A stretch of DNA of 49,501 nt from a virus. A program made the translations under genes and the position numbers. Position 1 is the stretch's first letter, and each line of letters opens with the position of its first letter. Positions 3,658 through 33,714 of this stretch are shown here, piece after piece. Location of the stretch: IMG/VR virus record IMGVR_UViG_3300025655_000054, positions 1 through 49,501 of that record; one strand, 5' to 3'. A model generated the notes under the pieces. The model made no database searches, had not been told where the DNA came from, and saw only the letters and a list, made by a program, of their open reading frames with translations.

Positions 3658-4656
3658 TCATTCCGGTTCAGGAACACAGTGCTCAGACCTAGGTATATAG
3701 TGATGCTTATCATCTATATCATAGAGTTCTGTTGCTAAAGGTGTCATAGAAATCCAAAACTTCTCACCTTCTTTATACCTATCCAATACAAACATTTTCT
3801 TATGCAGATCATAAAGTACATCCCCATCCTCAGGGGGATCACCCATATAGACAGATGCAGTATTATGACCACCTCTAACTAAAGTTTGTATATATAAATC
3901 CCACTCTTCTTCCGAGTTAAACTCAGATCTTTTCTGATCCCAAACTGTTGTGTCAGTAGTTTCATATTGAATATATGATCTTGTGAAATATTTTTCTCCG
4001 TTAGATATACCGTTAACAGCATGAAAGTAAGGCTCTCTTTCCGGAGCCTTTGGATACAAAGGTGAGCCAGAAGGGAAAACGATAATTTCTCCAGCCTTTG
4101 GTTTTACTGGAATAATGTTTTCATTATGAAGAAAAATAACCTCACCACCATCGTAATCGTCATTAATATAAGTGTTAGCAGTTATTAAAAATTTTCTCTT
4201 AGGCCAGAACCATTCAGCTATAGGATAATCGGTATGAAACTGCATCCTGAGATTGTCCAAAGGATTGTGTTCAGAAGATAATTCTTTTATATCAAAATAC
4301 TTAGCAATATTTGGAGATGTGACAAAGGAATTATCTGGCCAATCAATTTGATTATAGTCCATATAATGACCAACAACTTTTTTTGTTACATCGTTTAGAG
4401 TGTGGTAAACATACTTCTCTATCTCAAACAGTTCACTGTCGTCTGCAATTTCGTCTTCATCAAAATTCGGGTCTTCATCAAAATTCGGAATAGCAGAACA
4501 GTAAGTCCCAAATACAAACCAATCTTTCCACTTCTCAAATATATATTCGCCTGTAGAATTACTTTCAATAAACTTTACACATTCAAACAGTTTATCAATT
4601 TCATCATAAACATTTTTGTATACAAAAATTCTAGGGTAAACTTCTTCAAAATTCAT
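3658..4656 (-). CDS. 2OG-Fe(II) oxygenase, prolyl-4-hydroxylase-like
   Basis: 332 residues. The double-stranded beta-helix signature is visible: H141-T-D143 as the first two iron ligands, H212 as the distal ligand and R226 as the candidate 2-oxoglutarate-binding residue. Between them are the typical NDDYDGGEVIF strand and the KPKAGEIIVFPSG turn. Known family members use Fe(II), O2 and 2-oxoglutarate to hydroxylate protein side chains or small molecules; the substrate here is unknown. Residues 58-70 contain a near-perfect duplication (PNFDEDPNFDEDE), also visible in the DNA. An extra C-terminal segment of about 100 residues follows the core. The ATG overlaps the stop of the frameshifted small gene upstream (ATGA), which suggests translational coupling. 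Confidence 0.85.
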   Translation of the reverse strand: MNFEEVYPRIFVYKNVYDEIDKLFECVKFIESNSTGEYIFEKWKDWFVFGTYCSAIPNFDEDPNFDEDEIADDSELFEIEKYVYHTLNDVTKKVVGHYMDYNQIDWPDNSFVTSPNIAKYFDIKELSSEHNPLDNLRMQFHTDYPIAEWFWPKRKFLITANTYINDDYDGGEVIFLHNENIIPVKPKAGEIIVFPSGSPLYPKAPEREPYFHAVNGISNGEKYFTRSYIQYETTDTTVWDQKRSEFNSEEEWDLYIQTLVRGGHNTASVYMGDPPEDGDVLYDLHKKMFVLDRYKEGEKFWISMTPLATELYDIDDKHHYIPRSEHCVPEPE

Positions 4657-4828
4657 AAAGCATGCTCTTCTTCTTCCTGATCCAGCATAAAGGTATACCC
4701 ATCAATACAGTCACCTTCTACCTTATGGTAGTCTAGCTTGCCTGCATTTACCTTTTCAAGCAGGAGATCTATCCCGTCAAAAAATCATCAATGACACATA
4801 TGTCATGATCAAAACCGACTAATTCCAA
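4653..4828 (-). pseudogene. Small acidic-tailed gene interrupted by a -1 frameshift at a T6 run
   Basis: A TTG at 4828 has a well-placed AGGAG 7 nt upstream and starts MELVGFDHDICVIDDFL, then meets TAG at 4769-4771. Shifting -1 at the six-T run (4779-4784) opens a frame reading DGIDLLLEKVNAGKLDY and onward to an acidic tail. It ends at TGA 4653-4655, overlapping the next gene's ATG as ATGA. The joined product would be about 58 residues. The run and following G form TTTTTTG, which fits the X-XXY-YYZ slippery pattern. A programmed -1 frameshift, a real mutation and a one-base sequencing error are all possible. Function is unknown. Confidence 0.5.
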
Positions 4829-6036
4829 TCTAAACTCCTATCTACCAAATTTGCCAAATGTATAGAGTCATGAACCCCAGGCCTAGTTCCACCTGAATTA
4901 TACTCATAAAATTTCAGCCCGTCAACATCACATAGGTCGCTGCATTTATTTAAATCTAATTGACTTTGCAAATCGAAAATCATTAAAGAATCTATGTGAT
5001 TACACTCTTTAATTATATTATACACATCACCCTGCAAGGATAGAACAATAAACTTACAACCCAAAACTTTACAAACGGCTTGCATATTGTATAGTATAGA
5101 AAAAGACTCTAAAATAGCTTTGTGCTCTTCGTCTTTTCTAAATTCAACATTCTTTACTGAACAATCCATTATCTTTTCAGGGTGCCCATATCCATTATTC
5201 CAATTTATAGAATGATTATAAAAAATTCTTCTACCAACTTTAGAATCTACCTCTAAAGGATAATTATAGTTATTTAATTTTGAAACTAGAATTATAACTT
5301 TTTTAGGAACACCAAAATTATTTAGATGATAAAAAAAGTTTTTAGACAACTTATGTAAGCTGCCGTCTACCAAAGACATATTATTTATTTTAATATTTCT
5401 CATATCTGATAACAACCCTGTCCAGGCATACGACTGAGGAAGGCCAACGGGAATACTCTCTTGTCCTCCGAGCACTAAGAGATCAGGATCTTGAACAAAA
5501 CTTGAACCAACATACTTATGCTCGTTTACCCTGTAAGATATAGACTCTTCCGCATCATGCCAGCCTAAGTCTTGATAAATTTTTGGTAAGTCTTTAACAT
5601 CATCAATTCTTGGTTCAGATTGGTCTTGAATTCTGACTTCTGCATCAAAGCTTAACGACTTATAGTCTATATTTTCGTTGTTTATTTCATTTTCAAATAA
5701 ATAAGTTTTAGAATCTGCTAATCTATGATTTTTCATAAACAAAATATGCTGATAGCACCTTCTATATGTAATATCATTTTTGGATTCCCCAGACAAAAGA
5801 GCTTTGTCTATCCACTCACACTTTTCTTCATAATTCATCCCAGCAATATAGTGATCAATGTTGCTATTAACAGCATAATGAAGGCAATCTACCACTGCTG
5901 GGCAATCTGATAAGCAGGGTGGATCTGCTTCCAGTTCACTAATAGACATACCTGCACAGGAAGCACCACTAAACGCATCAGTATCTGGAAGCTTAATCTT
6001 ATCCATATTATTTACTGTTCCATAAATATCAATCAT
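4819..6036 (-). CDS. WhiB-like Fe-S domain fused to an SGNH-hydrolase-like domain
   Basis: 405 residues. Residues 20-75 match the WhiB layout: C27, then C41-x3-C45-x5-C51, followed by IAGMNYEEKCEW where WhiB proteins carry the G[VI]WGG..EER turn. Canonical WhiB spacing is C-x2-C-x5-C, so one residue is inserted. WhiB proteins hold a 4Fe-4S cluster and act with the principal sigma factor in Actinobacteria. From about residue 160 the protein looks like an SGNH/GDSL hydrolase: a YRVNEHKY strand, LVLGGQES at the block-I position, a LSDM helix and a C-terminal DSIH (D390, H393). The usual nucleophile serine aligns with Gln192, so the hydrolase may be inactive or use another residue. The start overlaps the upstream stop (ATGA). 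Confidence 0.6.
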   Translation of the reverse strand: MIDIYGTVNNMDKIKLPDTDAFSGASCAGMSISELEADPPCLSDCPAVVDCLHYAVNSNIDHYIAGMNYEEKCEWIDKALLSGESKNDITYRRCYQHILFMKNHRLADSKTYLFENEINNENIDYKSLSFDAEVRIQDQSEPRIDDVKDLPKIYQDLGWHDAEESISYRVNEHKYVGSSFVQDPDLLVLGGQESIPVGLPQSYAWTGLLSDMRNIKINNMSLVDGSLHKLSKNFFYHLNNFGVPKKVIILVSKLNNYNYPLEVDSKVGRRIFYNHSINWNNGYGHPEKIMDCSVKNVEFRKDEEHKAILESFSILYNMQAVCKVLGCKFIVLSLQGDVYNIIKECNHIDSLMIFDLQSQLDLNKCSDLCDVDGLKFYEYNSGGTRPGVHDSIHLANLVDRSLDWN

Positions 6037-6911
6037 AAATTACTATCGTAATAAAGTTTACTTTTACCTATGTCAGATCTATTGAAGATTCTTTGACCTT
6101 CAATCCATCCTCCAGAGTAGCTATGAATAACATTTCTATTATCCCACAATAAAAAATCTCCTTCAGACCACGACCACGTAACCCAATTATTGGAATCTTT
6201 TAAATAATCTTCAATGTAAGTACAGTACTCCAGACATAGATCTGCATTAGAGGATAGTAACCTGTTTGAAAAAGCACTCATAATGTTAAGAGATACATTT
6301 CCTGTAACAGGATGGTTGCATAGTGCTGGATAATTTCTAATAGACCACATAACATTGTCATGGTCTATTCCTGGTAACGTTGTATCAAAATCCAGCAGGC
6401 TGCTTGTAGCTATCTCTTCATCCCTAGAAGGACCCCCAGAAAGTGAGATCATATTGTATTTACCTAAAATTTTCTTCAGCCTAGGCGGCAGATCTTCAAA
6501 CATTTCTTCTTTATCTACAAAAACAGTTTTACCGCAATCGGGAGAGCAAGTAAAAACTTTCATGTTCATACTTATAAATGTTGGAATCGAAGTTTCAGGA
6601 TCAGATATGGGACTTTCATCTGAATGCCAGTTGCTATGCACATACCTTAGAAGTTCATCAGGAGTGCTGTCAGGACCATACTTGACCTGACCCTCATGGA
6701 AGTGACCTTGCTTAAAGTTTGCCCCTCCCACCTGCTCTGGATCAATTGGTTCACAAGAGTAAACCGACTTCATTATCTCCATCTGCTCATCAGGTTTTAA
6801 GTCCATAGAAGGAACAACAACGGCTTTACCATTAATTAAAGCAGAATGAATTGACTCGGCGCTAAATAGTAAGTCCTCATATGAGTTGGCTAACAACTTA
6901 TAAATTTTCAT
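6033..6911 (-). CDS. TauD/TfdA-like 2OG-Fe(II) dioxygenase
   Basis: 292 residues, the usual length for the TauD/TfdA family. The iron triad is visible as H96-S-D98 (NWHSDES) and H263 (WDNRNVIHSY). R274 (QRIFNRSD region) is placed to bind 2-oxoglutarate. The GDFLLWDNRNVIHS block is the family hallmark. Known members hydroxylate small molecules such as taurine, carnitine precursors or free amino acids; this one's substrate is unknown. It is the only TauD-type enzyme among twelve oxygenases here. Its stop overlaps the start of the WhiB-SGNH gene, and its ATG abuts the previous stop, so it sits inside the oxygenase operon. Confidence 0.85.
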   Translation of the reverse strand: MKIYKLLANSYEDLLFSAESIHSALINGKAVVVPSMDLKPDEQMEIMKSVYSCEPIDPEQVGGANFKQGHFHEGQVKYGPDSTPDELLRYVHSNWHSDESPISDPETSIPTFISMNMKVFTCSPDCGKTVFVDKEEMFEDLPPRLKKILGKYNMISLSGGPSRDEEIATSSLLDFDTTLPGIDHDNVMWSIRNYPALCNHPVTGNVSLNIMSAFSNRLLSSNADLCLEYCTYIEDYLKDSNNWVTWSWSEGDFLLWDNRNVIHSYSGGWIEGQRIFNRSDIGKSKLYYDSNL

Positions 6912-7693
6912 TATAACTTATAATTTCCTGACATCATTCTAGCTTTAGAATCCTCTATAAGATCTGGCATCCATATTCTATATGGATTTTCTTGACCTAT
7001 AACTTCATCTCTTTCAAAGTCTACACCATAACAAGCCATTGTCAAAAATGCGTACCTAGCTCCACTAGTAACTGGGTACACCTCATGTCTACCTATGTAA
7101 TTAGAAGGATATATTAATACAGTCCCAGGCTTAGGACTATACTCAACATTTATATTTGGAAAATGCATTTGCCCACCCTCATAGTCTTTTCCGCATTCAT
7201 TTAAATATAAATTTACACTTGTGCTGTTGTGCATAGAGACTTGATTTTGAGGTCTAGATCCCCATTCCCAAGGAATCTGATCATCACAGTGAGCACCTAT
7301 ATGCTGACCATCTTCATAACCAGCGATATGGCCTTTTGGTCTCCACCAAGCTGTAGTGGCAGCATCTGGAAAGTAGGCGCAGTACTCAACCAACGCATCG
7401 TAGATTGCATCCTCACACTTTTGTATAAATTCTACCCATTCAGGCTTTGGCGCTCTGCCTATTTGCTCCCCTTTAAGATCCAGAAATCTTTGTGGAGCTA
7501 AATTAATATCATCTAATCTAAATTTAAATCCTGTCTTATTTCTAGCATACTTTACGCCATCTTCCTCGTAATATGTAAAAGAATCTTCTTCATTCTTCTT
7601 AAGCCAAGATGTGTACTCTGTAACTAAATCATTATCAATGTCTAAAACATTTTCACATGCGACTATACCCATACCTAAGTGAACTGATTCCAT
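6911..7693 (-). CDS. 2OG-Fe(II) oxygenase, prolyl-4-hydroxylase-like
   Basis: 260 residues from ATG 7693, preferred over an ATG five codons upstream because AGAGG sits 6 nt before it. The iron ligands are H135-C-D137 (HIGAHCDDQIP) and H203 (IGRHEVYPV), with R213 for 2-oxoglutarate. Core strands include EGGQMHFPNINVEYSPKPG. The N-terminus (HLGMGIVACENVLDID) and the mid-region (WW.P.GHIAGYEDG) are shared with the next three genes, so these four are recent paralogues. The product is presumably a soluble cytoplasmic hydroxylase. The substrate is not evident from the sequence. Confidence 0.85.
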   Translation of the reverse strand: MESVHLGMGIVACENVLDIDNDLVTEYTSWLKKNEEDSFTYYEEDGVKYARNKTGFKFRLDDINLAPQRFLDLKGEQIGRAPKPEWVEFIQKCEDAIYDALVEYCAYFPDAATTAWWRPKGHIAGYEDGQHIGAHCDDQIPWEWGSRPQNQVSMHNSTSVNLYLNECGKDYEGGQMHFPNINVEYSPKPGTVLIYPSNYIGRHEVYPVTSGARYAFLTMACYGVDFERDEVIGQENPYRIWMPDLIEDSKARMMSGNYKL

Positions 7694-7736
7694 AATAACC
7701 TCTTTCATTTCATTTTATCAAAGCCCATATACTTTC

Positions 7737-8618
7737 CTACGTGTTAAGATTTGTTACCTTGTACTGCTCAGAGCTCTTATCATAACCTTTGGCTAATAAA
7801 TATTCTCTATAATCTTCTCTGAGTGTGGGCATGTAGACGTTAGTACTAATTCTTGCTTTTTCCGGCTCTTTAACTGGGTCACATACGTCTTCATACACTG
7901 AAGGATTAGGAGTTCCCTGACTATACCATCCGAGATATGAAACCCTATGCCCCTTTCCAACAGGCTTAACTTCATGCGCAGCCATGAAATTAGAAGGAAA
8001 CATAAGTATATCTCCTGCTTTAGGTTGGTAATCAATATCTAAGTAATTAAAATAGTGATGACCTTCAGTAAAATTGTTACCTGTCAACTCCTCCTCAGAA
8101 TCAACGGAAGAATTAACATAAACTAGACAAGAAATTATACTCCTAAGAGCTAGTTCATCTCTAGTAGAATGTACTCCATATATATACTCTGCGCTTGTGT
8201 CAGAATGACTACCAAGGTACACGCCATCCCTATAAGATACTACATGCCCCTTTACCTTCCACCATACACAATTGTAAGCTAAAGGAAACATCTCAAAGTA
8301 TTTTAATAAATATTTATCTTTAGACTCCTCTAAAAAATTGAATAACTTGTGAACCTCATCCCTAGGGTCTTGATGCATCATTGAGGCCCTTCTGGGCATG
8401 GAATATATAGAGTCTTTACTAAAAAGATATCCACTCTTATTCATGTAAGTTTCCTCACCAGTTTCTGGATCAGAAGTTATATCATACATAGCAGCCTGCT
8501 CTTCGTCTAAGGCTCTACAAAAAATCTCATAAGTCCAATCAAAATCGTAGTCTACAGCATTTCGAAAAAGCACAACGCCGCCACCTAAATGCTCGGCCTC
8601 AACATCATTATAAATCAT
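7737..8618 (-). CDS. 2OG-Fe(II) oxygenase, prolyl-4-hydroxylase-like
   Basis: 293 residues. Iron ligands are H138-S-D140 (YLGSHSDTSAEY) and H215 (MAAHEVKPV), with R225 (GHRVSYLGW). It shares with its neighbours the leader HLGGGVVLFRN, the WWKVKGHVVSYRDG strand and the DYQPKAGDILMFPSNFMAAHEV block. It carries an extra SVDSEEELTGNNFTEG loop before the core strand, also present in the 9503-10615 paralogue. Its ATG overlaps the upstream stop (ATGA), indicating coupled translation. The substrate is unknown. Confidence 0.85.
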   Translation of the reverse strand: MIYNDVEAEHLGGGVVLFRNAVDYDFDWTYEIFCRALDEEQAAMYDITSDPETGEETYMNKSGYLFSKDSIYSMPRRASMMHQDPRDEVHKLFNFLEESKDKYLLKYFEMFPLAYNCVWWKVKGHVVSYRDGVYLGSHSDTSAEYIYGVHSTRDELALRSIISCLVYVNSSVDSEEELTGNNFTEGHHYFNYLDIDYQPKAGDILMFPSNFMAAHEVKPVGKGHRVSYLGWYSQGTPNPSVYEDVCDPVKEPEKARISTNVYMPTLREDYREYLLAKGYDKSSEQYKVTNLNT

Positions 8619-9502
8619 TTCTCAACCTCTTGCTTTGTATTAGAACTATGAAAATCTCTACTAACCGGCATTAACTTATGATCATCATAAGTTTCTCCAT
8701 AAAATTCTATCACATAATTTTGATAATCAACAAATAGATCTGGCATCCACACCTGACCACCAAATATTCCATCTACTGGATCAGAAACCTGAACACCCCT
8801 AGTCGGATCGGAAGAACCCTGACCAAAATATTCAAGATAAGCAAATCTGTTGCCCTCTTTTACACCCTTAACTTCATGCGCACACATAAAGTTAGCTGGA
8901 AACATTAACACATCACCACGCTGTGGTTTATAAACTAATTCTGCGTAAGGAAAGTAAATCTCTCCACCAGTAAAATTCCCATCCTCATATTCTTCTGTAG
9001 AAGAATTGAAATACGTTATTGCAGCTAGTACATGACGTATCCCTAGTTGATAGTCTGGCTCAAATCCAGGAGAAAAATTTATGTCGTTATCACAATGCAG
9101 ACCTAGATCTGCCCCAGCCCCATATGCTAGTACATGCCCCTGAGTTTTCCACCATAAACAAGGTAAGATCATAGGATATATTGATGCATACTCAATCATA
9201 GATCGGTACAGCATCTCTTCACAGTGAGAAAAGAATTCTTTCTGCCAGTCTGATTCAAAGTGATCATAAAAATCAGTTATTCTACTGCAGCTTTTATCAA
9301 TATCCTCTATCTTAAAACGATGTCCACTTTTGTTAGTAGCATAAAGAGCATTCCCATCTTCATCATAAACATATGAATAATGCTTTTCCCTAGCATCGTT
9401 TTTTAGTTTTAAAAGATAATCAGTTATGCCATCAGGTACATTAATTTTATTCCTAAATAAAACTATTCCATTACCCAACAACTCACAGTTATTGGGTAAC
9501 AT
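8615..9502 (-). CDS. 2OG-Fe(II) oxygenase, prolyl-4-hydroxylase-like
   Basis: 295 residues. Ligands are H136-C-D138 (DLGLHCDNDINF) and H209 (MCAHEVKGV), with R219 (GNRFAYLEYFGQG). The core is TGGEIYFPYAELVYKPQRGDVLMFPANF. It belongs to the same four-member paralogue set as its neighbours, sharing the GNGIVLFRN leader and the GQGSSDPTRG motif after the catalytic core. The ATG follows an AGGAG placed inside the end of the upstream gene, with the two genes abutting. The conserved active site with diverging loops suggests different targets for each paralogue. Confidence 0.85.
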   Translation of the reverse strand: MLPNNCELLGNGIVLFRNKINVPDGITDYLLKLKNDAREKHYSYVYDEDGNALYATNKSGHRFKIEDIDKSCSRITDFYDHFESDWQKEFFSHCEEMLYRSMIEYASIYPMILPCLWWKTQGHVLAYGAGADLGLHCDNDINFSPGFEPDYQLGIRHVLAAITYFNSSTEEYEDGNFTGGEIYFPYAELVYKPQRGDVLMFPANFMCAHEVKGVKEGNRFAYLEYFGQGSSDPTRGVQVSDPVDGIFGGQVWMPDLFVDYQNYVIEFYGETYDDHKLMPVSRDFHSSNTKQEVEK

Positions 9503-10615
9503 TTACTGCTCCTGACCTATGATAACCGGATCAGTGCCGCAGTTCGCAGCGTCCGTTCCAGGAATCTCCTCCGCCTCATGAGTTGTACCATACTGAGCAA
9601 CACATCTACCCTGATAGACTGGGTTTATACCAATATAGGTCTCTTCACCAGTCGTAAATCTTGAGTACTCAGACTTACAGTAGCGCTCATAGTCATCGTA
9701 TATATTGTTCATCCACACAGCAGGACACCATTGGGTAGAGGCATCTGTTTCAGCTATTTCTATATTTGCCTCTCTATGAGGAGATCCCTGACCAAAGAAA
9801 GAAAGATAACTATACCTAACGCCTGCTTCCATTCTGTCAACATCATGTGAGGCCATATAATTTGTAGGAAAGAAAACTATATCGCCTTTTTCTGGCTTAT
9901 AGTCAATATTTAAGTGGAAGAATCTCAAATGACCACCAACAAAATTTCTACCGTCTAAATCATCCTCAGAATCAACAGAATCATTTAGATACACTAATGC
10001 TCCACACGTTTGTCTGGCTGCCATCTGACCCCTAGGCATATATCTAACACCTTCTGTAACTTTATAGTTTGTATCATTATCACAATGGGCACCCAGCACA
10101 CCTTGGTCTTGATACCTAAGAATGTGGCCCCTATTTTTCCACCACAAACACCCTACGATAAGAGGAAAATGATCAACATACTTAATCAGACACTTATAAA
10201 TAGTATCTTCCATATTATAGAAAAAGTCACGAATATTATCAGGTGTATCTGGATCTATCGGATGAAGAATTCTAACAGGCGTAGCGGGAATGTCTTCTGG
10301 TCTATATCTGAACCCATCTTCATTTATACCGTAAGTCTCACCATCTTCAGCTTCAATATATTCCCACCTATTTTGATGAGACTTCGCAGCTCTGTCATCT
10401 AGATACTGGTATACCGGTTCTTCATCAAACTTAAGTACGTTTTTAAATATTAGAATTCCACCGCCAAGGTTTTCAACTTTGAACTCTGATATTTCTTTTA
10501 ATTCATCATCACCAATAATAGGTGTATCTGGAAATATTATATTAGAGAGAAAAGCACCCGGGGGTAAATCATAATCCTGCTGTTCTTGCTGCTGCGCACT
10601 CATTGTATCGCTCAT
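9503..10615 (-). CDS. 2OG-Fe(II) oxygenase, prolyl-4-hydroxylase-like, extended termini
   Basis: 370 residues, the longest of the paralogue set. It has a polar N-terminal extension of about 45 residues (Gln- and Asp-rich) and a C-terminal tail of about 60. Ligands are H177-C-D179 (VLGAHCDNDTNY) and H257 (MASHDVDRM), with R267. The GGHLRFFHLNIDYKPEKGDIVFFP block is intact. The ATG has a strong GGAAGGG ribosome-binding site 6 nt upstream, and a TATAAT box at 10644-10649 lies in the 80-nt gap before it. This gene therefore probably opens the run of oxygenase genes leading to 6911. Confidence 0.85.
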   Translation of the reverse strand: MSDTMSAQQQEQQDYDLPPGAFLSNIIFPDTPIIGDDELKEISEFKVENLGGGILIFKNVLKFDEEPVYQYLDDRAAKSHQNRWEYIEAEDGETYGINEDGFRYRPEDIPATPVRILHPIDPDTPDNIRDFFYNMEDTIYKCLIKYVDHFPLIVGCLWWKNRGHILRYQDQGVLGAHCDNDTNYKVTEGVRYMPRGQMAARQTCGALVYLNDSVDSEDDLDGRNFVGGHLRFFHLNIDYKPEKGDIVFFPTNYMASHDVDRMEAGVRYSYLSFFGQGSPHREANIEIAETDASTQWCPAVWMNNIYDDYERYCKSEYSRFTTGEETYIGINPVYQGRCVAQYGTTHEAEEIPGTDAANCGTDPVIIGQEQ

Positions 10616-12265: not shown

Positions 12266-12886
12266 CTAACCCAGAACCTCATCTATACATTCTCTAATTG
12301 TCCAACTTTCTCCTGTGGTCAAAGGAACATCGTCTAGTGGCATTGCCTGCCAATTGAATCTTCCTATCATTGTCCCAGTTCTACCAACAACAAACATCTC
12401 CCATACGTGGGGTATTCTAGCCAAGGCTGCGCCCTCTTGATTCCATCCATCCTGTGCTGCCTGAGAGTTATCAGCCATGTTGTCGGACTTATTTCTTAAA
12501 GCTTTACCCTTTAATAAGGAATAAACTTCACATTCATTCGGTCCATTAACGTCAACCTTTTCAGCTATAGGAAAAGTAATAAATGGATATGTTTCTTTCA
12601 TGAAGGAGCTTATTTCTTCATTTGTACCAGTCTCCATAAGGCCCTGAACAAACTGATTACAGGGGAAAGCAACGACGCTGAATCCTCTATCCCCGAATTC
12701 GTCTTGAAGCTTTTGAAGCTGCCAGAAATGCCTAACAGATCTTGCATACGACCAGAAAGTGGAACACTGCGGTGTATAATTATATTTAGATACAGTATTA
12801 ACAATAAGAGTTACCTTACCCTTAAACTGTTCCATAAAATTATCTTCGTCATCTATAGACTTAACCTGTACATCATATATAGACAT
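12266..12886 (-). CDS. Glutathione-peroxidase-like protein lacking the peroxidatic Cys
   Basis: 206 residues from ATG 12886, whose A is shared with the preceding TAA and which has GAGG about 9 nt upstream. The GPx fold signature is clear: KVTLIVNTVS, then LQDEFGDRGFSVVAFPCNQF, EKVDVNGPN, and a C-terminal VVGRTGTMIGRFNW. In the family the peroxidatic Cys or Sec sits in the xASxCG loop; here that position is Tyr35 (VSKYNYTPQC). Cys41 and Cys76 (FPCNQF) remain. The region 42-58 looks like an insertion. Normal GPx chemistry is unlikely unless Cys41 substitutes. It is embedded among oxygenase genes, where peroxide or thiol handling would make sense. Confidence 0.7.
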   Translation of the reverse strand: MSIYDVQVKSIDDEDNFMEQFKGKVTLIVNTVSKYNYTPQCSTFWSYARSVRHFWQLQKLQDEFGDRGFSVVAFPCNQFVQGLMETGTNEEISSFMKETYPFITFPIAEKVDVNGPNECEVYSLLKGKALRNKSDNMADNSQAAQDGWNQEGAALARIPHVWEMFVVGRTGTMIGRFNWQAMPLDDVPLTTGESWTIRECIDEVLG

Positions 12887-13167
12887 TACACAACCTCGCA
12901 TATTGATTCAAGATAAACTTCATCTAAAGTAGGATCTTCTAATTTAACCACACATTTATCACTGTCTAGTGAAAAAATTAACCTACAATCAAAAGGAACA
13001 TCTAATTCACCTTCTGCCAAAAGTAAGTCTTCATCATCTATAACAATATTTAAATCCGCAGAACCCTTGAATATTGACAGGGTCAACTTATCTTCACCCT
13101 TTTCTAACGTAAACTCTTCACTACCTAAGGGAGTTATAACTTTCATTTTACTAGGAACATCATTCAT
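12886..13167 (-). CDS. Hypothetical small beta-rich protein
   Basis: 93 residues, acidic, with alternating strands (MKVITPLGSEEFTLEKGEDKLTL; later DCRLIFSLDSDKCVVKLEDP). No family is recognised. It overlaps the DUF6065-like gene by 8 nt and shares a base with the GPx-like start, so it belongs to the oxygenase operon. Confidence 0.5.
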   Translation of the reverse strand: MNDVPSKMKVITPLGSEEFTLEKGEDKLTLSIFKGSADLNIVIDDEDLLLAEGELDVPFDCRLIFSLDSDKCVVKLEDPTLDEVYLESICEVV

Positions 13168-24466: not shown

Positions 24467-25195
24467 TTAAACAGAATTCCAAGAACTCCCATCGTAAACA
24501 TTCAAAGTTCCACTAGAAGTATTATACCATAGCTGACCTGTTTGTGGATTAGAAGGTTGAGACTCAGAAACGTCGGCAAGTTGAGCTGGACCAGTTGGAC
24601 CAGTCGGCCCTTCGGTGCCCCTTCTTCCGGTGATCTCTATCCAAGCTGAGTCATAGTAAGAAAACAAGCTTGCACTTGAAGAATCAAACCATAAATCCCC
24701 AGAATTAGGTGACGACGGTGCATCATCTGATACGGATAATCTATCTGGACCCGTAGGTCCTGTCGGACCAGTCGGGCCAATCGCACCAGATATTTCTACC
24801 CAAGTTGAATCGTAGTAAGAGTAAAGCCTGCCCTGATTAGAGTTGAACCATAGATCACCAGAATTAGGACTAGAAGGCTCAGATGCCGACACGGACATTC
24901 TATCTGGTCCAGTGGGGCCAACTGGACCAGTTGCACCAATGGGACCAGATAGCTCCACCCAAGACGAATCATAGTAAGAATAGAGTCTACCTTGACTAGA
25001 ATTAAACCACAAACTACCATCAAGAGGGTCAGAAGGTGCAGAATCCGATACTTCTGGTGCACCAGAAACAAACGCAGTAGGAGAAAACTTTGTACCATCG
25101 AAGGCTAAGACATAGTTTGGTGTCGCATTAGATAATTCTAATTCAACCCCTTGTATAACAATAGAATTTTTAACCTTGAAACTATTATCCGCCAT
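24467..25195 (-). CDS. Short collagen-like fibre protein
   Basis: 242 residues. Three copies of a module of about 50 residues, reading SVS..APSSPNSGDLWF, then a YSYYDSTWVEISG strand, alternate with short collagen runs (GPTGPTGPDR, GPVGPTGPDR). A variant fourth copy (SQPSNPQTGQLWYNTSSG) closes the protein. The N-terminus (DNSFKVKNSIVIQGVELELSNATPNYVLAFDG) matches the start of the other fibre proteins here. The architecture indicates a trimeric fibre with collagen-like hinges, whose Pro residues in X and Y positions are potential hydroxylation sites. A TGTTATAAT box precedes it. Confidence 0.7.
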   Translation of the reverse strand: MADNSFKVKNSIVIQGVELELSNATPNYVLAFDGTKFSPTAFVSGAPEVSDSAPSDPLDGSLWFNSSQGRLYSYYDSSWVELSGPIGATGPVGPTGPDRMSVSASEPSSPNSGDLWFNSNQGRLYSYYDSTWVEISGAIGPTGPTGPTGPDRLSVSDDAPSSPNSGDLWFDSSSASLFSYYDSAWIEITGRRGTEGPTGPTGPAQLADVSESQPSNPQTGQLWYNTSSGTLNVYDGSSWNSV

Positions 25196-27412: not shown

Positions 27413-27417
27413 GTTTG

Positions 27418-29121
27418 CTATACCTTTATAGCAGTCTTGTTAACTGATACTTTTGCGGACGTTGTTGCCCCATCAGTTACCGTTACATACAGCAAACCAT
27501 TGATTCCACTTGTAGATACTTCAACAGAAATACCAGATATAGAACCATTTAACTCTAAAACGCCATACTCAGTTTTATCTATGCTGGTACCATCGGTGAT
27601 AACATGAACCTTTGAACAGCGTATTTTAGATCCTTGTTTTATTTGAATAAAATATTCAACACTTGGATAATTACCCATGATAAAAGAGTCAACAAGAGTT
27701 TGGTTATTACTGCTAATGTTAATTGAAATAGATTCAATTAGTGAATTTGTAGTATGGATTGAATCGCTTATGAAGGCATCACCTTCTACATGTAGGTCAT
27801 AACTGGGGGATACTGTACCCACTCCAACCCTGTTGTTGTCTGCATCAACGTGAAAAGTGCTAGTATCTACCGTGAAGTCTCCACTAATCTCAGAGATAGG
27901 CGGCATTGAGAGACTAGATCCATCTGAAGAAATAATTACTCCACCTAAGTTGATACTTGTTCCGCTAAGAAAAAGGTCTCTAAATCTATAGGTTGATGAC
28001 CCTAAGTCGTACTGCTCATTTGCATCAGGAATTAAAGATCCACCTACAGCCCTTGAACCATCTGCTAAAAGGTACTGAGTGTGATCATCATCTGTAAGCC
28101 CTGTCATTGAACCATGGTCGGCAACGTCGTTTATCCATTGACTTCCATTGTATTTAAGAAGATCACCACTTGTAGCAGTGTTTATATTTACATCAGATAA
28201 ATCATCTATTGCACCAGCAACACCGCTAGCTCCAGTTGGGCCAGTAGGTCCGGTAGCACCAGTTAATCCAGTTAATCCAGTTAATCCAGTTGGACCCGTT
28301 GGTCCAGTTGGTCCCTGTGCACCAGATATTTCTACCCAAGTTGAATCATAATAGGAAAAAAGCCTGGCGTTGGTGGAATCAAACCACAGGTCACCAGATA
28401 CCACAGAAGAAGGAGCAGTATCTGAAACCTGCAATCTGTCTGGGCCAGTTGGACCTGTTGGGCCAGTTGGTCCCTGTGCACCAGATATCTCCACCCAGGT
28501 TGAATCATAGTAGGAGTAAAGTCTAGCATTAGTAGAGTCAAACCACAGGTCGCCAGATACAACAGAAGAAGGGGCAGTATCTGAAACGGACAACCTATCA
28601 GGACCAGTTGGACCTATTGGTCCGGTGGGCCCCTGTGCACCGGCTATTTCTACCCAAGTTGAATCATAATAGGAAAAAAGCCTGCCCTGATTAGAATTAA
28701 ACCAAAGATCACCAGCGTCAGGTGACGAAGGTGCTGAATCTGAGACAGATAATCTGTCAGGACCAGTTGGTCCTGTTGGACCAGTAGGTGCTGGAGCTGG
28801 AGCAAATTTTGTACCATTAAAAGTTAATACATAATCTGGAGTTGCACCTGTAGTATCTAGCTCAACATTGTCGACAAAAAGAGATGAAATATAAACTGAA
28901 CTTGGTAATGAAAAAGTGAACTCACCAGAAGATTCTGAAATAGAGATTTCTCCGGAGGTTCCTGATATAGATTTAATTAATTTTGTAGAAACAATATCGT
29001 CTAAAGAATCTTTATAAAATAAATTACCCGCATTATAATTTAATGCGAGTTCACCGTACTCTAAAGAGTTAGGGGTGGCAGAAGAAACTCCAGAGTTTTT
29101 AATTTTAATAGTATTAGCCAT
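27418..29121 (-). CDS. Collagen-like tail fibre protein
   Basis: 567 residues from ATG 29121, preferred over an upstream start because GAGG lies 5-8 nt before it. The N-terminus (NTIKIKNSGVSSATPNSLEYGELALNYNAGNLFYKD) is a recognised phage fibre attachment pattern. Between about residues 110 and 310 there are three GDLWF..YSYYDSTWVEISG modules separated by collagen runs; the last run is the longest (GPTGPTGPTGLTGLTGLTGATG). A QYLLADGSRAVGG..PDANEQYDLGSSTYRFRDLFLSG segment, common in phage tail fibres, follows, then a C-terminal IEYF/VEYFIQIKQGSKIRCSKVHV tip module. Confidence 0.75.
   Translation of the reverse strand: MANTIKIKNSGVSSATPNSLEYGELALNYNAGNLFYKDSLDDIVSTKLIKSISGTSGEISISESSGEFTFSLPSSVYISSLFVDNVELDTTGATPDYVLTFNGTKFAPAPAPTGPTGPTGPDRLSVSDSAPSSPDAGDLWFNSNQGRLFSYYDSTWVEIAGAQGPTGPIGPTGPDRLSVSDTAPSSVVSGDLWFDSTNARLYSYYDSTWVEISGAQGPTGPTGPTGPDRLQVSDTAPSSVVSGDLWFDSTNARLFSYYDSTWVEISGAQGPTGPTGPTGLTGLTGLTGATGPTGPTGASGVAGAIDDLSDVNINTATSGDLLKYNGSQWINDVADHGSMTGLTDDDHTQYLLADGSRAVGGSLIPDANEQYDLGSSTYRFRDLFLSGTSINLGGVIISSDGSSLSMPPISEISGDFTVDTSTFHVDADNNRVGVGTVSPSYDLHVEGDAFISDSIHTTNSLIESISINISSNNQTLVDSFIMGNYPSVEYFIQIKQGSKIRCSKVHVITDGTSIDKTEYGVLELNGSISGISVEVSTSGINGLLYVTVTDGATTSAKVSVNKTAIKV
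28321..28690 (-). repeat. Near-identical DNA copies of the GDLW...SYYDSTWVEI module
   Basis: Stretches of 40 nt or more are repeated exactly between about 28326-28365 and 28647-28686. Similar copies occur in the 24467-25195 gene around 24790-24835 and 24960-25000. The conservation at DNA level implies recent duplication or gene conversion between two fibre genes. Confidence 0.65.
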
Positions 29122-29161
29122 AAAAGCCTCAAGCAAAGGTACCTTGTTACGAGATCTCTCA

Positions 29162-29243: not shown

Positions 29244-31001
29244 TTGCGCAATTTTATTAGAGTACTACCAATGATTATTGCCTTTATGGCTCTTTTGTTC
29301 CCGGGGACAGCTTTTGCATACTCTTATACAGTCAGCGAAGAATCTGACCTGTACTTCACCATTGACAACGACAACACCCTTGTTGTTATCTACGGCAACA
29401 GTAACCGTGAATGTAATCAGCCCGGAGCAGACCCATACCTATGGGTGTATGAAGATGGTGTTGAATCAAGCGGTGCACTGATTGTCGCAAATGATGACGG
29501 CAACCACGGGCAAGGGCAGTGTGTGTCGTCAAAGATATATACGACACTTGATGCCGGGGACTACAGACTTAGGGCTGGGTATTGCTGCAGTTTGCGTGGG
29601 TTAGGCTCTAATCCGTCAGGTTACGACTACGAAATTGTCACAGATTTGACGTTTGACGGCGTTTCGCCAAATACGCCGACTACCACTACGACGAGCACGA
29701 CGACTACCAGCACTACCACTTCCACAACAACTACAACAACTACAACAACAATTCCGCAGACAATCGGTCCACCAATGAACCTGACCGGTTCAATCGTTGA
29801 GGTTTGGGTTGGAGAACAAGTAAGTGGTGGGGTCTATCTGGATTGGGACCCACCGAATACAGGGAACGTTGACCCTGAGCGTTATGCGATTTCTTTCAGA
29901 ATCCCACCTGACGCAGGCTGGGGTGTAGCCACAGGAAATCCCGGTGACGCAAACGCCCTCAATACCGAATACACACTTCCATTCAACATCTTCGCAAGCA
30001 CTGGCGGGTTTGGCGAAGAATACGTTTTTGACGTACGTGCTGACAATGACACGCTCGGCGTGTATTCCGGCTGGTCAACCCAAGTTACGTTAACCGTTGA
30101 GGAGCCGACTCCTCCAACAACGACGACGACAACGACGACGACAACTTCTACTACAACAACAACCACAACAGTACCACCAACCACCACAACCACCACAACA
30201 ACTGTGGCACCCACCACAACAACCAGTACTAGTACAACAACGACGTTGGCGCCTACAATAACTACTACTACGGTAGCGCCAACAACTACTACTACGGAGG
30301 TGCCGCCATCAACAACAACAACAACAACAACTTCTACGACGACTACAGTGCCCCCAACTACAAGCACTACCACGACAACCACCACATCGTCAACGACGAC
30401 GACTGTGCTGCCTACGACGACGTCAACGACGGTATTGCCGTCAACGACAACAACGGTCGCCCCTGTGTCATCAGTCGCTCCTGCCCCTCCTGCGGAGTCC
30501 ACCACATCCTTGCCATCTCCAACTCCAACAACTAGCATTCCCCTAACACTCGCAGAAGAAAGAGCTGAAGAAACTAAAGCTGAATTTGAAAACCTTGGTA
30601 TCGACACAGAAGGCGTTAACCTTGTAGAGGTTGATGAAGCTGAAGTAAAAATAGTAGAAGAACTAGACAAATTAGATGAAGAGCTAGCAGAAGATTTCCT
30701 TGATGTTGTCGACGGTGATGTAACCGTAGAGGAAGTTGAAAAACTTATAACAGATGATAAGTTTGAAGAAATTTCCGACGATGCTCAACAAATTCTTGTC
30801 GCAGCTGTCAATGAAGCTGACGATGAAGTAAAAGATACTTTCCAGAAGGAAGTAAATATATTCTCTGACAAAGACTTTGGAGAATACGTACCACTAGGAT
30901 CAAATATTAACGTTGAGCAGAGGCGAGTAATCGTTGCTGCTGGCGCTACTATTATGGCAGCAGCTGCGCCGGCTGCTGGCGGAGGGAGAAGAAAACAGTG
31001 A
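29244..31001 (+). CDS. Secreted Thr-rich, PPC/FN3-like protein
   Basis: 585 residues from TTG 29244, supported by GGGAGGGAGG ending 5 nt before it. Residues 1-25 form a signal peptide (VLPMIIAFMALLFPG then AFA-Y). Residues 26-135 look like a beta-sandwich with several Cys. About 170-285 resembles a fibronectin-III domain. Two linkers of almost pure Thr with TVPPTTTT/TSTTTT spacing flank it. The last 150 residues are an acidic helical domain (VDEAEVKIVEELDKLDEELAEDF) ending EYVPLGSNINVEQRRVIVAAGATIM and a basic tail. The coding sequence is GC-richer and codon-distinct up to about 30540, then AT-rich like the phage, so it looks chimeric. A role at the host surface is inferred. Confidence 0.75.
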   Translation: MRNFIRVLPMIIAFMALLFPGTAFAYSYTVSEESDLYFTIDNDNTLVVIYGNSNRECNQPGADPYLWVYEDGVESSGALIVANDDGNHGQGQCVSSKIYTTLDAGDYRLRAGYCCSLRGLGSNPSGYDYEIVTDLTFDGVSPNTPTTTTTSTTTTSTTTSTTTTTTTTTIPQTIGPPMNLTGSIVEVWVGEQVSGGVYLDWDPPNTGNVDPERYAISFRIPPDAGWGVATGNPGDANALNTEYTLPFNIFASTGGFGEEYVFDVRADNDTLGVYSGWSTQVTLTVEEPTPPTTTTTTTTTTSTTTTTTTVPPTTTTTTTTVAPTTTTSTSTTTTLAPTITTTTVAPTTTTTEVPPSTTTTTTTSTTTTVPPTTSTTTTTTTSSTTTTVLPTTTSTTVLPSTTTTVAPVSSVAPAPPAESTTSLPSPTPTTSIPLTLAEERAEETKAEFENLGIDTEGVNLVEVDEAEVKIVEELDKLDEELAEDFLDVVDGDVTVEEVEKLITDDKFEEISDDAQQILVAAVNEADDEVKDTFQKEVNIFSDKDFGEYVPLGSNINVEQRRVIVAAGATIMAAAAPAAGGGRRKQ

Positions 31002-31165
31002 GGAAAATATTCTCTGAAATTAAAGAACTAAACTGGACCGTAGCGGGAACAGCGCTTGTGCTAATCACCCTGAGTGGTGACGTACTCAGATACGGTTTAT
31101 GGATTAGTGGAGGCGCGATTGCTATTCATTTAATCGCAACAATTTTCTCAGAAGAAGAAGAATAA
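30998..31165 (+). CDS. Small membrane protein (55 residues)
   Basis: A GTG at 30998 overlaps the preceding TGA (GTGA), with GGAGGG about 11 nt upstream. The product has two hydrophobic stretches (WTVAGTALVLITLSG and YGLWISGGAIAIHLIATIF) and a basic N-terminus and an acidic SEEEE C-terminus, so it is probably a two-pass membrane protein. It is co-transcribed with the secreted protein. It could be a holin-type protein or a partner for secretion; no family is recognised. Its stop directly abuts the stop of the convergent minus-strand gene. Confidence 0.5.
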   Translation: MRKIFSEIKELNWTVAGTALVLITLSGDVLRYGLWISGGAIAIHLIATIFSEEEE

Positions 31166-31405
31166 TTACTTAGCTTTTTTATCTACCTTGTTAAATACTG
31201 CGTCTATTTCTTCCTTGCTTAAGACACCGTCATCCATATAGGCTCTAGCTAAACCCTCAACCACCATTGCAACGCCGCCTATTCCAGCCATTAGCACAGC
31301 TTTCCAAAGCTCTACACCGGCTATTGCACCAGCACCTATAACGCTTAAGCCTGAAGCAGCGAACGCTGCAAGTATTCTAAAAGAAAGTGATTTTATATTT
31401 TGCAT
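31166..31405 (-). CDS. Holin-like small membrane protein
   Basis: 79 residues. Two hydrophobic segments (about 10-28, AAFAASGLSVIGAGAIA; and 33-52, AVLMAGIGGVAMVVEGLA) are followed by a polar tail with DGVLSKEEIDAVFNKVDKKAK. This layout is common in small phage holins of Actinobacteria and marine phages, but there is no diagnostic motif. It lies away from the endolysin gene, which has its own membrane-protein neighbour, so an alternative is a structural membrane protein. It has its own GTTACTATTTC promoter element and a GGAGGG ribosome-binding site. Confidence 0.45.
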   Translation of the reverse strand: MQNIKSLSFRILAAFAASGLSVIGAGAIAGVELWKAVLMAGIGGVAMVVEGLARAYMDDGVLSKEEIDAVFNKVDKKAK

Positions 31406-31483: not shown

Positions 31484-32113
31484 TTAGGGTTCATATGTAT
31501 AACTTTCACCATCCCAAGGCTCATCTAAAAGCTCTTCAATTTTTTCCATAAGTCTTGAAAGCTCTACCTCTGGAGAGTCACAGTATCCACCTTCGTATCC
31601 AAAGTTTAAAAGAACAAAATTAGGTAAGCGCCAAACAACCTTACCACTTCTGTCAATTAAAAACTTTTCAAAATTTCCATACATAGGAGATGCTTCCATG
31701 TCTGGATTTAAATTCATATACAACTCATGTGGAGTTTTATTTGGATCGTCTTTTTCTTCATCCCTAAATGGTACCGATACGACTATGTCACTAAAACCAT
31801 AGGTCACATCCCACTCTTCCCTAGCATAGTCTTCAGACATCATGGCATGAGTTATGCCCTGCTCATACATTCCATAGGTAACTCCAGGGCCACAAAAATC
31901 ATTAGTTGGGACAGCCAAAACTTCAAAACCTCTATCTTTATACTTTTGATATAGGTCTTCCAAGATTCCAAATTGAGGTGCATTACCACAATGACCTGTA
32001 GTATTTGTCAATAAGGTTACTTTACCCTTATACTTTGAAAGTATATCTTCCTCACCTCTTGATCCGTTAAGCTTTATTTCGTATATACTTTTTCTTTGCG
32101 GGTTTTCACCCAT
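31484..32113 (-). CDS. Glutathione-peroxidase-like protein (peroxidatic Cys kept)
   Basis: 209 residues from ATG 32113, chosen because GGGAGG lies 8 nt upstream and the two earlier ATGs fall inside the preceding gene. GPx features are KVTLLTNTTGHCGNAPQ with peroxidatic C42, YQKYKDRGFEVLAVPTNDFCGP, and YGNFEKFLIDRSGKVVWR. Two of the catalytic tetrad positions are changed: the usual NQF glutamine is Asp72 and the usual tryptophan is Tyr145. A Cys at 74 could resolve a disulfide. It probably reduces peroxides or acts as a thiol oxidoreductase, and it is the second GPx-family member beside 2OG oxygenases in this window. Confidence 0.7.
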   Translation of the reverse strand: MGENPQRKSIYEIKLNGSRGEEDILSKYKGKVTLLTNTTGHCGNAPQFGILEDLYQKYKDRGFEVLAVPTNDFCGPGVTYGMYEQGITHAMMSEDYAREEWDVTYGFSDIVVSVPFRDEEKDDPNKTPHELYMNLNPDMEASPMYGNFEKFLIDRSGKVVWRLPNFVLLNFGYEGGYCDSPEVELSRLMEKIEELLDEPWDGESYTYEP

Positions 32114-32138
32114 GCCAGCGACCTCCCACTCATCCTTC

Positions 32139-32981
32139 TTAGCTAAGTAGTGCAAACTCATCATACAATCCTTTCTCTAGATTACCTTCTCTGACACCTC
32201 TTGGTTGCCAGCCATCATTCCATTCTTCTGGAAATAGTGATTTTTGCTCATCGGTCATAACACTCCACATGTTATGAATTATGCTGTGCATTTCTATAAG
32301 CTTAGGTCTTGCTAAGTGTGTTATTAAATTCCACCTAGTGCCATTTCTAACTGTATGAACTGCGTGAGTATACTCAACAGTACCTGGAAAAAACACTAGC
32401 TGCCCAGGAGTATGAGTAATTTTGAGGTCATAATCTGGAAAATACAACTCTCCCTCATCGTAATCATCATTAATATAAATATTGGCAGAGTATTCAATAA
32501 TCGCTGGCTCATACAAGTGATTAGGAGAGTAATCCGGTAGATAGTTTATACCTTCAGGTGCTGCACCTTCTGAGTCAGTATGGCCTGGACAAGTTACGCC
32601 CTCTATTGACTGATGTCTGTTAAAATGAAATATTGGAACAACCTTTCTTCCAACCATATATGATATAACCACAGACATCTTATCCATATAATACTTTAGC
32701 AGAGGGTTCTTTTTTCTATGATAAGAGTCCTCATCGATTATGCGATTTTGGCACTCTTCGGCGTACTTACCTTTGGCATAACTTGCATACTCGGGACCCG
32801 GAAACTTATGATACCACCATTCATTACTTGGATCAGGATTTTCTAAAGACTCTACACACAATGCGTGTATCTCTTTTACATGATCCATTTCCATAAAACC
32901 ATCAATAACAACCACATTATTTTCACTAGCTAAATTATTGCGAGATTTATTTATCATATCTTCTATTGAATCAGTACTCAT
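32139..32981 (-). CDS. 2OG-Fe(II) oxygenase, prolyl-4-hydroxylase-like
   Basis: 280 residues from ATG 32981, which has TAGGAG 7 nt upstream (a start seven codons earlier would overlap the upstream gene). Ligands are H134-T-D136 (PGHTDSEGA) and H206 (EYTHAVHTV), with R216 (GTRWNLITHLA). The core strand is DEGELYFPDYDLKITHTPGQLVFFPG. An EYSANIYINDDYD segment is shared with the 32992-33714 gene (EYAAICYLNDDYE). It is followed directly by the GPx-like gene, the same pairing seen around 12-14 kb. Confidence 0.85.
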   Translation of the reverse strand: MSTDSIEDMINKSRNNLASENNVVVIDGFMEMDHVKEIHALCVESLENPDPSNEWWYHKFPGPEYASYAKGKYAEECQNRIIDEDSYHRKKNPLLKYYMDKMSVVISYMVGRKVVPIFHFNRHQSIEGVTCPGHTDSEGAAPEGINYLPDYSPNHLYEPAIIEYSANIYINDDYDEGELYFPDYDLKITHTPGQLVFFPGTVEYTHAVHTVRNGTRWNLITHLARPKLIEMHSIIHNMWSVMTDEQKSLFPEEWNDGWQPRGVREGNLEKGLYDEFALLS

Positions 32982-32991
32982 TATATAACTC

Positions 32992-33714
32992 CTAACTATC
33001 ATATATAGCTAATCTATAGGGGGAGGTGTAAGGTAAGTTAGACCTATTAAAATCAACCTTATTTGTAAACATTTCCTCCTGAGAATAATTTATAAAATTA
33101 AGAGATTCTTCTCCTTGTATAAATTTTTCCCATAAGTATCTTAACTTATTAGTAGTCAAAAAATTTTGAACAACCATCCTATTTCCACTGGTAACCTCTT
33201 TAACTCCGTGCATGTAGAACCTGGTGCCAGGAAAAAACAATAGCTCATTAGGTTCTGGTTTAATGCTTAGATCGTAATCGGGAAAATATATTTCTCCGCC
33301 TTCGTAATCATCATTTAGATAACATATAGCGGCGTATTCTAAAAATATGGATGAAAAATTATAAAATGGATCACATTTCATTAAGTCATCCTGCTCATAA
33401 ATAATAGCTTCACAATCAGAATGCGGAGGCTGATGTTCACCTGGATACCATTTTCTAAAACATGTGCCAGAAAAGTCGGTTACCCCTAGTCCAAACCTCT
33501 GGCTTACAACACCACAAACATCACTGAGATACTCTTCAACAACCTCATATATGCCATAATCGCAACCCTTTGTTACAGTAATCATGGCCCTTTCTTTTAT
33601 TCCCTGGTCACAGTACATGTCCTGAGTGTCAAAGAAATGTTTGAATTTAAGAAATTTATCAGGAGGCAAAAAGTTTTTTACTCTGCAAATATTATCAGGA
33701 TTCGCTGTCCTCAT
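32992..33714 (-). CDS. 2OG-Fe(II) oxygenase, prolyl-4-hydroxylase-like
   Basis: 240 residues if ATG 33714 is used; a GTG three codons earlier is also possible because no strong ribosome-binding site decides. Ligands are H98-S-D100 (QPPHSDCEAI) and H169 (FYMHGVKEV), with R179 (GNRMVVQNF). The core is EGGEIYFPDYDLSIKPEPNELLFFPG. It overlaps the upstream cysteine-motif gene by about 20 nt. It lies within the 34054-31484 operon that also holds another oxygenase and a GPx-like protein. Confidence 0.85.
   Translation of the reverse strand: MRTANPDNICRVKNFLPPDKFLKFKHFFDTQDMYCDQGIKERAMITVTKGCDYGIYEVVEEYLSDVCGVVSQRFGLGVTDFSGTCFRKWYPGEHQPPHSDCEAIIYEQDDLMKCDPFYNFSSIFLEYAAICYLNDDYEGGEIYFPDYDLSIKPEPNELLFFPGTRFYMHGVKEVTSGNRMVVQNFLTTNKLRYLWEKFIQGEESLNFINYSQEEMFTNKVDFNRSNLPYTSPYRLAIYDS

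Follow-up and report, generated by a model that had tools for sequence, protein, structure and literature searches.

The window analysed here, by which we mean the whole 49,501 bp of an IMG/VR virus record from an uncultivated aquatic phage, carries an array of genes for oxygenases that use Fe(II) and 2-oxoglutarate (2OG), together with a gene whose product ends in a tandem repeat of Phe-Phe-Pro-Pro units (the FPP protein). From position 3658 to 33723, eleven prolyl 4-hydroxylase (P4H)-type genes, named P4H_A to P4H_K in window order, and one TauD gene all lie on the minus strand. A first-pass annotation had counted the same eleven P4H-like proteins and one TauD-like protein, and Pfam, alignment, PHROG assignments and a structural model find all twelve. 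It had placed the array at positions 3658 to 33714, but 3658 is not its left end: G001, a contig of the same virus (99.97% identity over 35,350 bp), extends the array past the window's left edge with two more PF13640 genes and a tryptophan halogenase gene.

The active sites are intact, as that annotation had stated. Alignment places an HxD motif, a distal His and a Lys or Arg as the basic 2OG ligand in all eleven P4H genes, and the TauD-like oxygenase (6033–6911, 292 amino acids (aa); PF02668 at 57.2 bits, cut-off 27) has HSD at residue 96. At the DNA level ten of the eleven P4H genes match PF13640, nine of them over the family cut-off of 27 bits. P4H_A (3658–4656, 332 aa) has HTD at residue 141 with the distal His and a Lys, and scores 27.9 bits at the DNA level and 25.4 bits, under the cut-off, at the protein level. 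Four genes then follow in close succession: P4H_B (6911–7708, 265 aa, HCD at 140, 44.6 bits, orthologues 78–98% identical), P4H_C (7737–8618, 293 aa, HSD at 138, 45 bits, 82–98%), P4H_D (8615–9502, 295 aa, HCD at 136, 35.3 bits, 70–95%) and P4H_E (9503–10615, 370 aa, HCD at 177, 39.1 bits, 77–98%). P4H_F (13885–14802, 305 aa; H137, D139, H190 and K200) scores 41.8 bits, P4H_G (14780–15385, 201 aa, HWD at 113) 38.6 bits and P4H_H (15378–15965, 195 aa, HID at 107) 46 bits. At the far end of the array, P4H_J (32139–33002, 287 aa, HTD at 141) stays under the cut-off at both levels, with 22.1 bits at the protein level, and was placed by alignment, while P4H_K (32992–33723, 243 aa, HSD at 101) reaches 34.7 bits.

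P4H_I (15966–16601, 211 aa; H128, D130, H188 and R198) has no Pfam match at E ≤ 0.1 and was recovered by alignment, by a PHROG common to it and P4H_F (phrog_2297) and from its AlphaFold2 model. The model, made for P4H_I alone of the eleven, has a double-stranded beta-helix fold (predicted local distance difference test score (pLDDT) 89.4, predicted template modelling score 0.85), and its best Foldseek matches in the PDB are human P3H1 (collagen prolyl 3-hydroxylase 1), PBCV-1 vCPH and bacterial and algal P4H enzymes. The iron and 2OG ligands are invariant in 25 of 25 aligned rows of the P4H_I family and in 26 of 26 rows of the P4H_F family. The PHROG labels on the two genes (15966–16601 and 13885–14802), 'DNA endonuclease' for phrog_2297 and 'ferrochelatase' for phrog_3531, look like wrong names.

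Directly upstream of P4H_I, on the same minus strand and separated from it by 66 bp, lies the FPP gene (16668–18845), the source of the proposed substrate. Its 725-aa product contains fn3 domains (75.5 bits) and carries 20 tandem [FYW]FPP units at residues 639–718, encoded at about 16684–16931. The same tail is present in the four other relatives examined for it (G002, G003, G005 and G007). In the three contigs examined at this level, the units differ in synonymous Pro codons, while the second codon is nearly always TTC; the units are therefore not fresh copies of one another. We rejected the third-base variation of the Pro codons as a sign of selection, since the run had been chosen for being uninterrupted FPP. 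Among ten other FPP proteins, fn3 scores over the Pfam cut-off in four and just under it in two, and these domains, together with the fibre-type neighbours, suggest that the FPP protein would be located on the virion. A PASTA-like reading of the short FPP proteins was dropped when two of them gave no Pfam match, and one FPP-repeat protein (L086, 3043–5559) has a Hint/intein-domain match at 20.3 bits, under the cut-off. In cellular genomes the repeat was found in four contigs, three of which encode an FPP protein of the short phage type. These three are binned as Verrucomicrobiales and Gammaproteobacteria genomes; two (L337 and L338) have an adjoining P4H gene, and in the third (L340) the repeat sits at the end of the stretch. 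They are probably phage contigs inside cellular bins.

Two further protein types are mixed into the array, and the annotation's reading of both stood. The DUF6065 protein (13160–13885, minus strand; PF19541 at 139 bits, cut-off 26.6) directly follows P4H_F in many loci, including some without the FPP repeat (L450, L451 and L453). Its model (pLDDT 92.4) is predicted to have a dUTPase-like fold: dUTPases fill the list of structural matches, the best with a Z score of 10.9 over 121 residues at an rmsd of 4.9, and Foldseek gives E = 7e-5, a comparison at the level of the fold. We know of no dUTPase with its most conserved stretch, RxWMDxTxxxHAY. Beside it lies the first of two GPx-like proteins (GPx1, 12266–12901, minus strand; PF00255 at 82.9 bits, cut-off 27; orthologues 86–93% identical). 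The peroxidatic Cys or Sec of a GPx sits in an NVASxCG motif; GPx1 has Tyr at that position (NTVSKYNYT) and no TGA codon, and keeps the PQCS and PCNQF cysteines. Of 23 wider relatives with the motif shown, three have Cys (L396, L404 and L417) and the others mostly Ala, Phe, Leu or Tyr, and the P-x-C-S and PCNQF cysteines recur. The function of GPx1, judged from these residues, may have shifted away from that of a peroxidase. The second GPx-like protein (31484–32164, minus strand; PF00255 at 48 bits) keeps the Cys (GHCGN).

A search with P4H_D found seven related contigs (G001 to G007), and all seven carry PF13640 genes, six to twelve per contig, so that the array recurs in related phages. The gene order is kept between lineages as far as the contigs reach: the fn3/FPP protein, P4H_I, P4H_G/H, P4H_F, DUF6065, a small gene, GPx1, P4H_E, P4H_D, P4H_C, P4H_B, a TauD-type gene, a variable region, P4H_A and fibre genes. 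What the variable region and the genes around it contain differs by relative: a DegT aminotransferase, extra TauD genes, a PF11397 GlcNAc transferase, a carbamoyltransferase or a P450. PF11397, which we take to be the family of the Skp1 hydroxyproline GlcNAc transferase, lies inside the array in one relative pair only; the window instead has a GT17 glycosyltransferase (34297–35058, minus strand; PF04724 at 108 bits) and a GT2-like glycosyltransferase with TPR (23405–24463, minus strand; PF00535 at 23.1 bits, just under the cut-off of 23.3). Within the region swapped between relatives, the window has a 405-aa protein with a Cys-rich N-terminus (4819–6036), for which a WhiB-like reading, made by eye from the Cys pattern, was dropped for want of a Pfam or PHROG match. 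A tryptophan halogenase gene stands beside the array in two relatives (G001 38711–40225 and G004 29721–31229), and the gene after it resembles a DUF6065 relative by eye and has no Pfam match.

The P4H genes form a conserved set, diversified as the annotation had proposed, and P4H_B to P4H_E are older than it had assumed. It had called the genes at 6911–10615 clear recent paralogues. P4H_B to P4H_E are 26–34% identical to one another, whereas their orthologues in the other contigs (G001, the same virus, left aside) are 70–98% identical. In a tree of 116 phage sequences, with 206 of 884 alignment columns kept and phage sequences only, each of these four genes clusters with its orthologues, and the groups with members from G002, G004 and G006 have support of 0.994–1.0. 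P4H_B to P4H_E were therefore already separate before these phages split. The description fits only the pair at 14780 and 15378 (P4H_G and P4H_H, 38–39% identical), which looks from its sequences like a duplication private to the lineage of the window and G002. Measured against G004, or G005 for two genes, the proportion of nonsynonymous differences (pN) is 0.036–0.206 in ten of the eleven genes tested, and their synonymous sites are close to saturated; P4H_A is less conserved (pN 0.374, 46% identity). The ratio of nonsynonymous to synonymous rates (dN/dS) is unusable here, dS being infinite for three of the eleven genes and above 1.2 for the remainder.

The linkage between the repeat and the hydroxylases was measured from both sides. 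Starting from the repeat, a DNA pattern for PP[FY]FPP[FY]FPP[FY]FPP found at least 119 loci in IMG/VR, and in 119 of 119 the repeat is encoded in frame. The contigs of the first 50 loci were scored for PF13640 at E ≤ 1e-3: the family is present in 45 (44 over the cut-off), with five or more matches in 27 and up to 11. In 49 metagenomic contigs that contain an arbitrary 16-mer, it is present in three, with one match each (26 of the 75 loci, outside the 3300 series, were left out before the count). Fisher tests on the contig counts give p values that are too small, the contigs being related. DUF6065, counted in the FPP set alone, occurs in 36 of the 50 FPP contigs. The tryptophan halogenase occurs in one of the 50, and we rejected it as a core part. 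The position of the hydroxylase is strongly one-sided. Counting only loci whose sequence reaches 2 kb or more on the side concerned, 65 of 82 have a P4H gene within 2 kb downstream of the FPP gene, and 2 of 53 have one upstream. Of 79 loci, 35 have an F-like gene and 30 an I-like gene as the nearest P4H within 2.5 kb downstream. When the FPP proteins are grouped by their sequence outside the repeat, 100 of the 119 fall into 12 clusters, and the two largest, with 54 and 24 members, hold most of the P4H neighbours.

Starting from the hydroxylase, where loci were not selected on the repeat, we took the best 80 of 586 P4H_I relatives (61–99% identity), some on contigs shared with the forward set. 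The repeat lies within 6 kb of P4H_I in 67 of the 80 loci and in every one of the 23 whose flanks both reach 5 kb, and each of the 13 loci that lack it has less than 5 kb on at least one side. The 67 loci hold 68 repeat stretches, 49 convergent with P4H_I and 19 upstream of it on the same strand, two geometries which imply that the link between FPP and P4H_I outlives rearrangement. Where P4H_I has flanks of at least 4 kb on both sides, P4H_F and DUF6065 are each present in 29 of 29 loci, GPx1 in 19 and a match to the VTGN-type fibre in 28, to which low complexity may contribute. Among the best 80 of 549 P4H_F relatives, the repeat is found in 47; it is found in none of the 75 random-word loci. 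Loci in the reverse test and in the test of position were counted without dereplication. The tightest link to the FPP repeat is that of P4H_I, followed by P4H_F and DUF6065.

We propose, and think it fairly probable, that the array serves to hydroxylate surface proteins of the phage, as a module in which P4H_I, with or without P4H_F, acts on the FPP tails. The proposal builds on the genes themselves, their active-site residues, the predicted fold of P4H_I, conservation and the FPP–P4H_I–P4H_F–DUF6065 linkage; from these we infer the FPP prolines as substrate, a role for their modification and the kind of target that the remaining enzymes would have. Hydroxylation of the FPP tail is the simplest account because a prolyl-hydroxylase fold, a repeat of proline pairs, adjacency across rearranged gene orders and joint conservation all meet in it. 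The core of the module would comprise P4H_I, P4H_F, DUF6065 and a protein of the tail or virion type with tandem (F/Y)FPP units at its end. During virion assembly, P4H_I, alone or with P4H_F, would hydroxylate prolines of the FPP tail using O2, Fe(II) and 2-oxoglutarate. The very hydrophobic Phe-Phe-Pro-Pro tail would thereby become extensin-like and rich in hydroxyproline, which would raise its solubility or prepare it for glycosylation, and the glycosyltransferases and other tailoring enzymes would vary from phage to phage. The other P4H enzymes and the TauD enzyme probably act on other residues or repeats of the neighbouring fibres (the collagen-like GPT and GNPGNPG, and VTGN), which is the weakest part of the proposal.

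The neighbouring fibre genes offer several such repeats. A fibre-like gene runs off the left edge of the window, which holds its first part (1–2322, minus strand); it was placed by its counterpart at 33029–36400 in G001 (L493), in the 99.97% identical alignment. The protein is 1,123 aa long there, and with the G005 counterpart (46541–49765) the range is 1,074–1,123 aa. It contains collagen-like GNPGNPG stretches and a repeat region very rich in His, and is a possible further substrate. Next to the FPP gene, a VTGN/VTGD-repeat fibre-like protein of 1477 aa (18896–23329, minus strand) matches tail and head-decoration PHROGs. Two collagen-like GPT proteins follow, also on the minus strand: a tail protein at 24467–25195, recognised by its sequence and tail PHROGs (PF01391 at 17.5 bits, under the cut-off), and a tail fibre protein at 27418–29136 (PF01391 at 30 bits, tail fibre PHROGs). 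Both are possible second substrates. Amid these minus-strand fibre genes, a long plus-strand gene at 29244–31001 shows, by eye, a signal-peptide-like start and long Thr runs, with no Pfam match.

Several observations weigh against hydroxylation of FPP tails as the module's purpose. The proposal leaves the need for eleven P4H enzymes unexplained, and the same fold also serves the hydroxylation of elongation factor Tu (EF-Tu) and of small molecules. Five of the 50 FPP contigs (6.9–36.8 kb) have no PF13640 match, and the random-word control was drawn without habitat matching. In seven of the smaller clusters of FPP proteins (clusters 2, 3 and 5–9), no P4H lies within 2 kb downstream in any of the nine loci with 2 kb there; one of these loci, L062, also contains another FPP gene, 68 bp downstream of which a P4H lies. 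One P4H_I locus (L392) lacks the repeat despite flanks of 4.4 and 6 kb, and the regular repeat is found in 25 of the 40 P4H_F loci whose flanks are complete, an irregular one in two, a GPSF type in two and none of these in 11. The counts are not independent, owing to shared ancestry: clustering the 80 P4H_I genes at 80% identity gives 18 groups, eight of them with a full-flank locus, and at 70% identity only four, two of them with such a locus. Since the search pattern itself picked out uninterrupted FPP runs, the constancy of these runs does not count as further evidence of selection. Finally, the location on the virion finds no help in the FPP protein's own matches, as it hit no PHROG and none of 50,697 phage records with the low-complexity filter on.

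The strongest rival, to which we give a small but real chance, holds that the enzymes act chiefly on the collagen-like GPT proteins of the tail fibres, in the manner of the collagen prolyl hydroxylases of PBCV-1 and Bacillus, and that the FPP link is secondary. The GPT proteins at 24467 and 27418 have tail fibre PHROGs and are conserved in G005, and the fold of P4H_I is nearest to collagen prolyl hydroxylases. To compare the two repeats, we scored the first 50 contigs of 120 GPT-collagen loci. PF13640 is present in ten of them, but 40 have none and six of the other ten have one match only, against 45 of the 50 FPP contigs and five or more matches in 27. The one GPT contig with six matches also carries P4H_I and P4H_F (it is the contig of L253, L405 and L439), and the FPP repeat occurs in none of 119 GPT loci (L038, which belongs to both the FPP and the GPT sets, was left aside).

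Alternatively, the genes could be a tailoring cluster for a small molecule, a peptide product or a surface sugar made during infection. A DegT aminotransferase, a carbamoyltransferase, a P450, a TauD gene and a tryptophan halogenase do stand among or beside the P4H genes in the relatives. These tailoring genes vary between relatives, however, the halogenase occurring in one of the 50 FPP contigs, while FPP, P4H_I, P4H_F and DUF6065 form the constant core; no scaffold-building enzyme was noticed, and we consider this origin unlikely. Distinctly unlikely, in our judgement, is a role in host metabolism of the kind suggested for cyanophages, in which such auxiliary metabolic genes would lower the host's 2-oxoglutarate or reprogram its nitrogen metabolism. 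PMC3037559 puts forward such a role, and PMC9602691 and PMC10611076 repeat it, but it predicts neither a position downstream of one repeat gene, nor the pairing of P4H_I with FPP, nor conserved, distinct paralogues.

Hydroxylation of a host protein such as EF-Tu is brought to mind by a Foldseek match of P4H_I to 5v7y, whose title names a prolyl 4-hydroxylase that modifies EF-Tu, yet a host target gives no reason for linkage to a phage FPP gene and is very improbable. Least probable of all is DNA base oxidation or repair of the TET/JBP or AlkB-like kind. Weak Tet_JBP scores, of which the highest is 16.5 bits where 34.9 is the cut-off, and a dNMP kinase at 41368 could be cited for it, but the structures that P4H_I matches best are those of protein prolyl hydroxylases, and the array sits among fibre genes. 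A part in defence or counter-defence was rejected, PADLOC having given only a generic 2OG model (three of ten proteins) and a mad2 match at 34 bits to the methyltransferase at 35490.

Elsewhere in the window, a lysin-like gene (37836–38810) contains a 228-bp tandem duplication (1.8 copies, 37842–38258) over two peptidoglycan-binding matches. Among the 25 best rows for the DnaE-type polymerase, the nearest named isolates are Streptomyces phages and a Saccharomonospora phage at 34–37% identity, with gut-phage records scoring similarly; judged by these similarities, an actinobacterium is a plausible host.

2OG-Fe(II) oxygenases are common yet unexplained in aquatic phages, and the FPP–P4H_I pairing supplies a concrete substrate that is cheap to test; to our knowledge, no substrate this specific has been proposed before for a phage enzyme. 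We suggest more tentatively, and with slightly less than even confidence, a widespread and so far undescribed phage system of virion maturation, in which a hydroxylase pair and DUF6065 turn (F/Y)FPP tails into hydroxyproline-rich, sometimes glycosylated, extensin-like tails; the larger 2OG arrays of aquatic phages would then be assembly-line modifiers of fibre repeats, not metabolic genes. If FPP tails are indeed the substrate of P4H_I, phages would make hydroxyproline proteins, the virion assembly of these phages would depend on O2, iron and 2-oxoglutarate, and DUF6065 would gain a functional context.

We now compare the array with known systems. The first-pass annotation had taken it for a system not previously described, which is correct in one part. 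Many 2OG oxygenases in one phage are already in print: PMC9602691 gives 24 such open reading frames for cyanophage S-SCSM1, and PMC3037559 up to five for T4-like cyanophages, with host metabolism as the published reading. As in the window, S-SCSM1 has many 2OG genes; in the stretch examined, four lie immediately upstream of tail fibre genes and three a short distance downstream. PMC12774648 describes marine-phage oxygenases structurally like human prolyl hydroxylase EGLN3, and PMC9301287 mentions a viral P4H together with tail-fibre collagen. In the open-licence literature we found no paper on the FPP repeat, searched for as letters, and no report of its pairing with a hydroxylase among papers on hydroxyproline or prolyl hydroxylases with phage tails. 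Cultured phages also differ from the window: in the collection of 50,697 phage records, relatives of P4H_I are weak (27 records, none covering 80%), P4H_F has 301 records and none at 80% coverage, DUF6065 has no match, and no isolate holds the FPP protein, DUF6065, P4H_D or P4H_I at 80% coverage.

A close structural precedent is PBCV-1 vCPH (PDB 5c5t), a top Foldseek match of P4H_I (E = 2e-9) and likewise a virus-encoded prolyl hydroxylase fold. It differs in coming from a eukaryotic algal virus and in being 17% identical over the match, whereas the window has an array of eleven, tied to FPP more than to collagen repeats. The Chlamydomonas P4H (2jig and 3gze) shares the fold of the P4H_I model at 15–16% identity, and P4H_I is encoded by a phage. 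The targets of plant and algal extensin-type P4H enzymes are adjoining or repeated prolines, which in plants lie in repeats that contain aromatic residues. In the Skp1 pathway, according to PMC3515798, a P4H acts first and the hydroxyproline is then glycosylated, and the likeness to our system lies in the PF11397 enzyme within the array of one relative pair. Viral prolyl hydroxylation of a repetitive surface protein is thus of a known kind; the FPP repeat and its conserved gene module are new, and they are not the oddity of a single phage.

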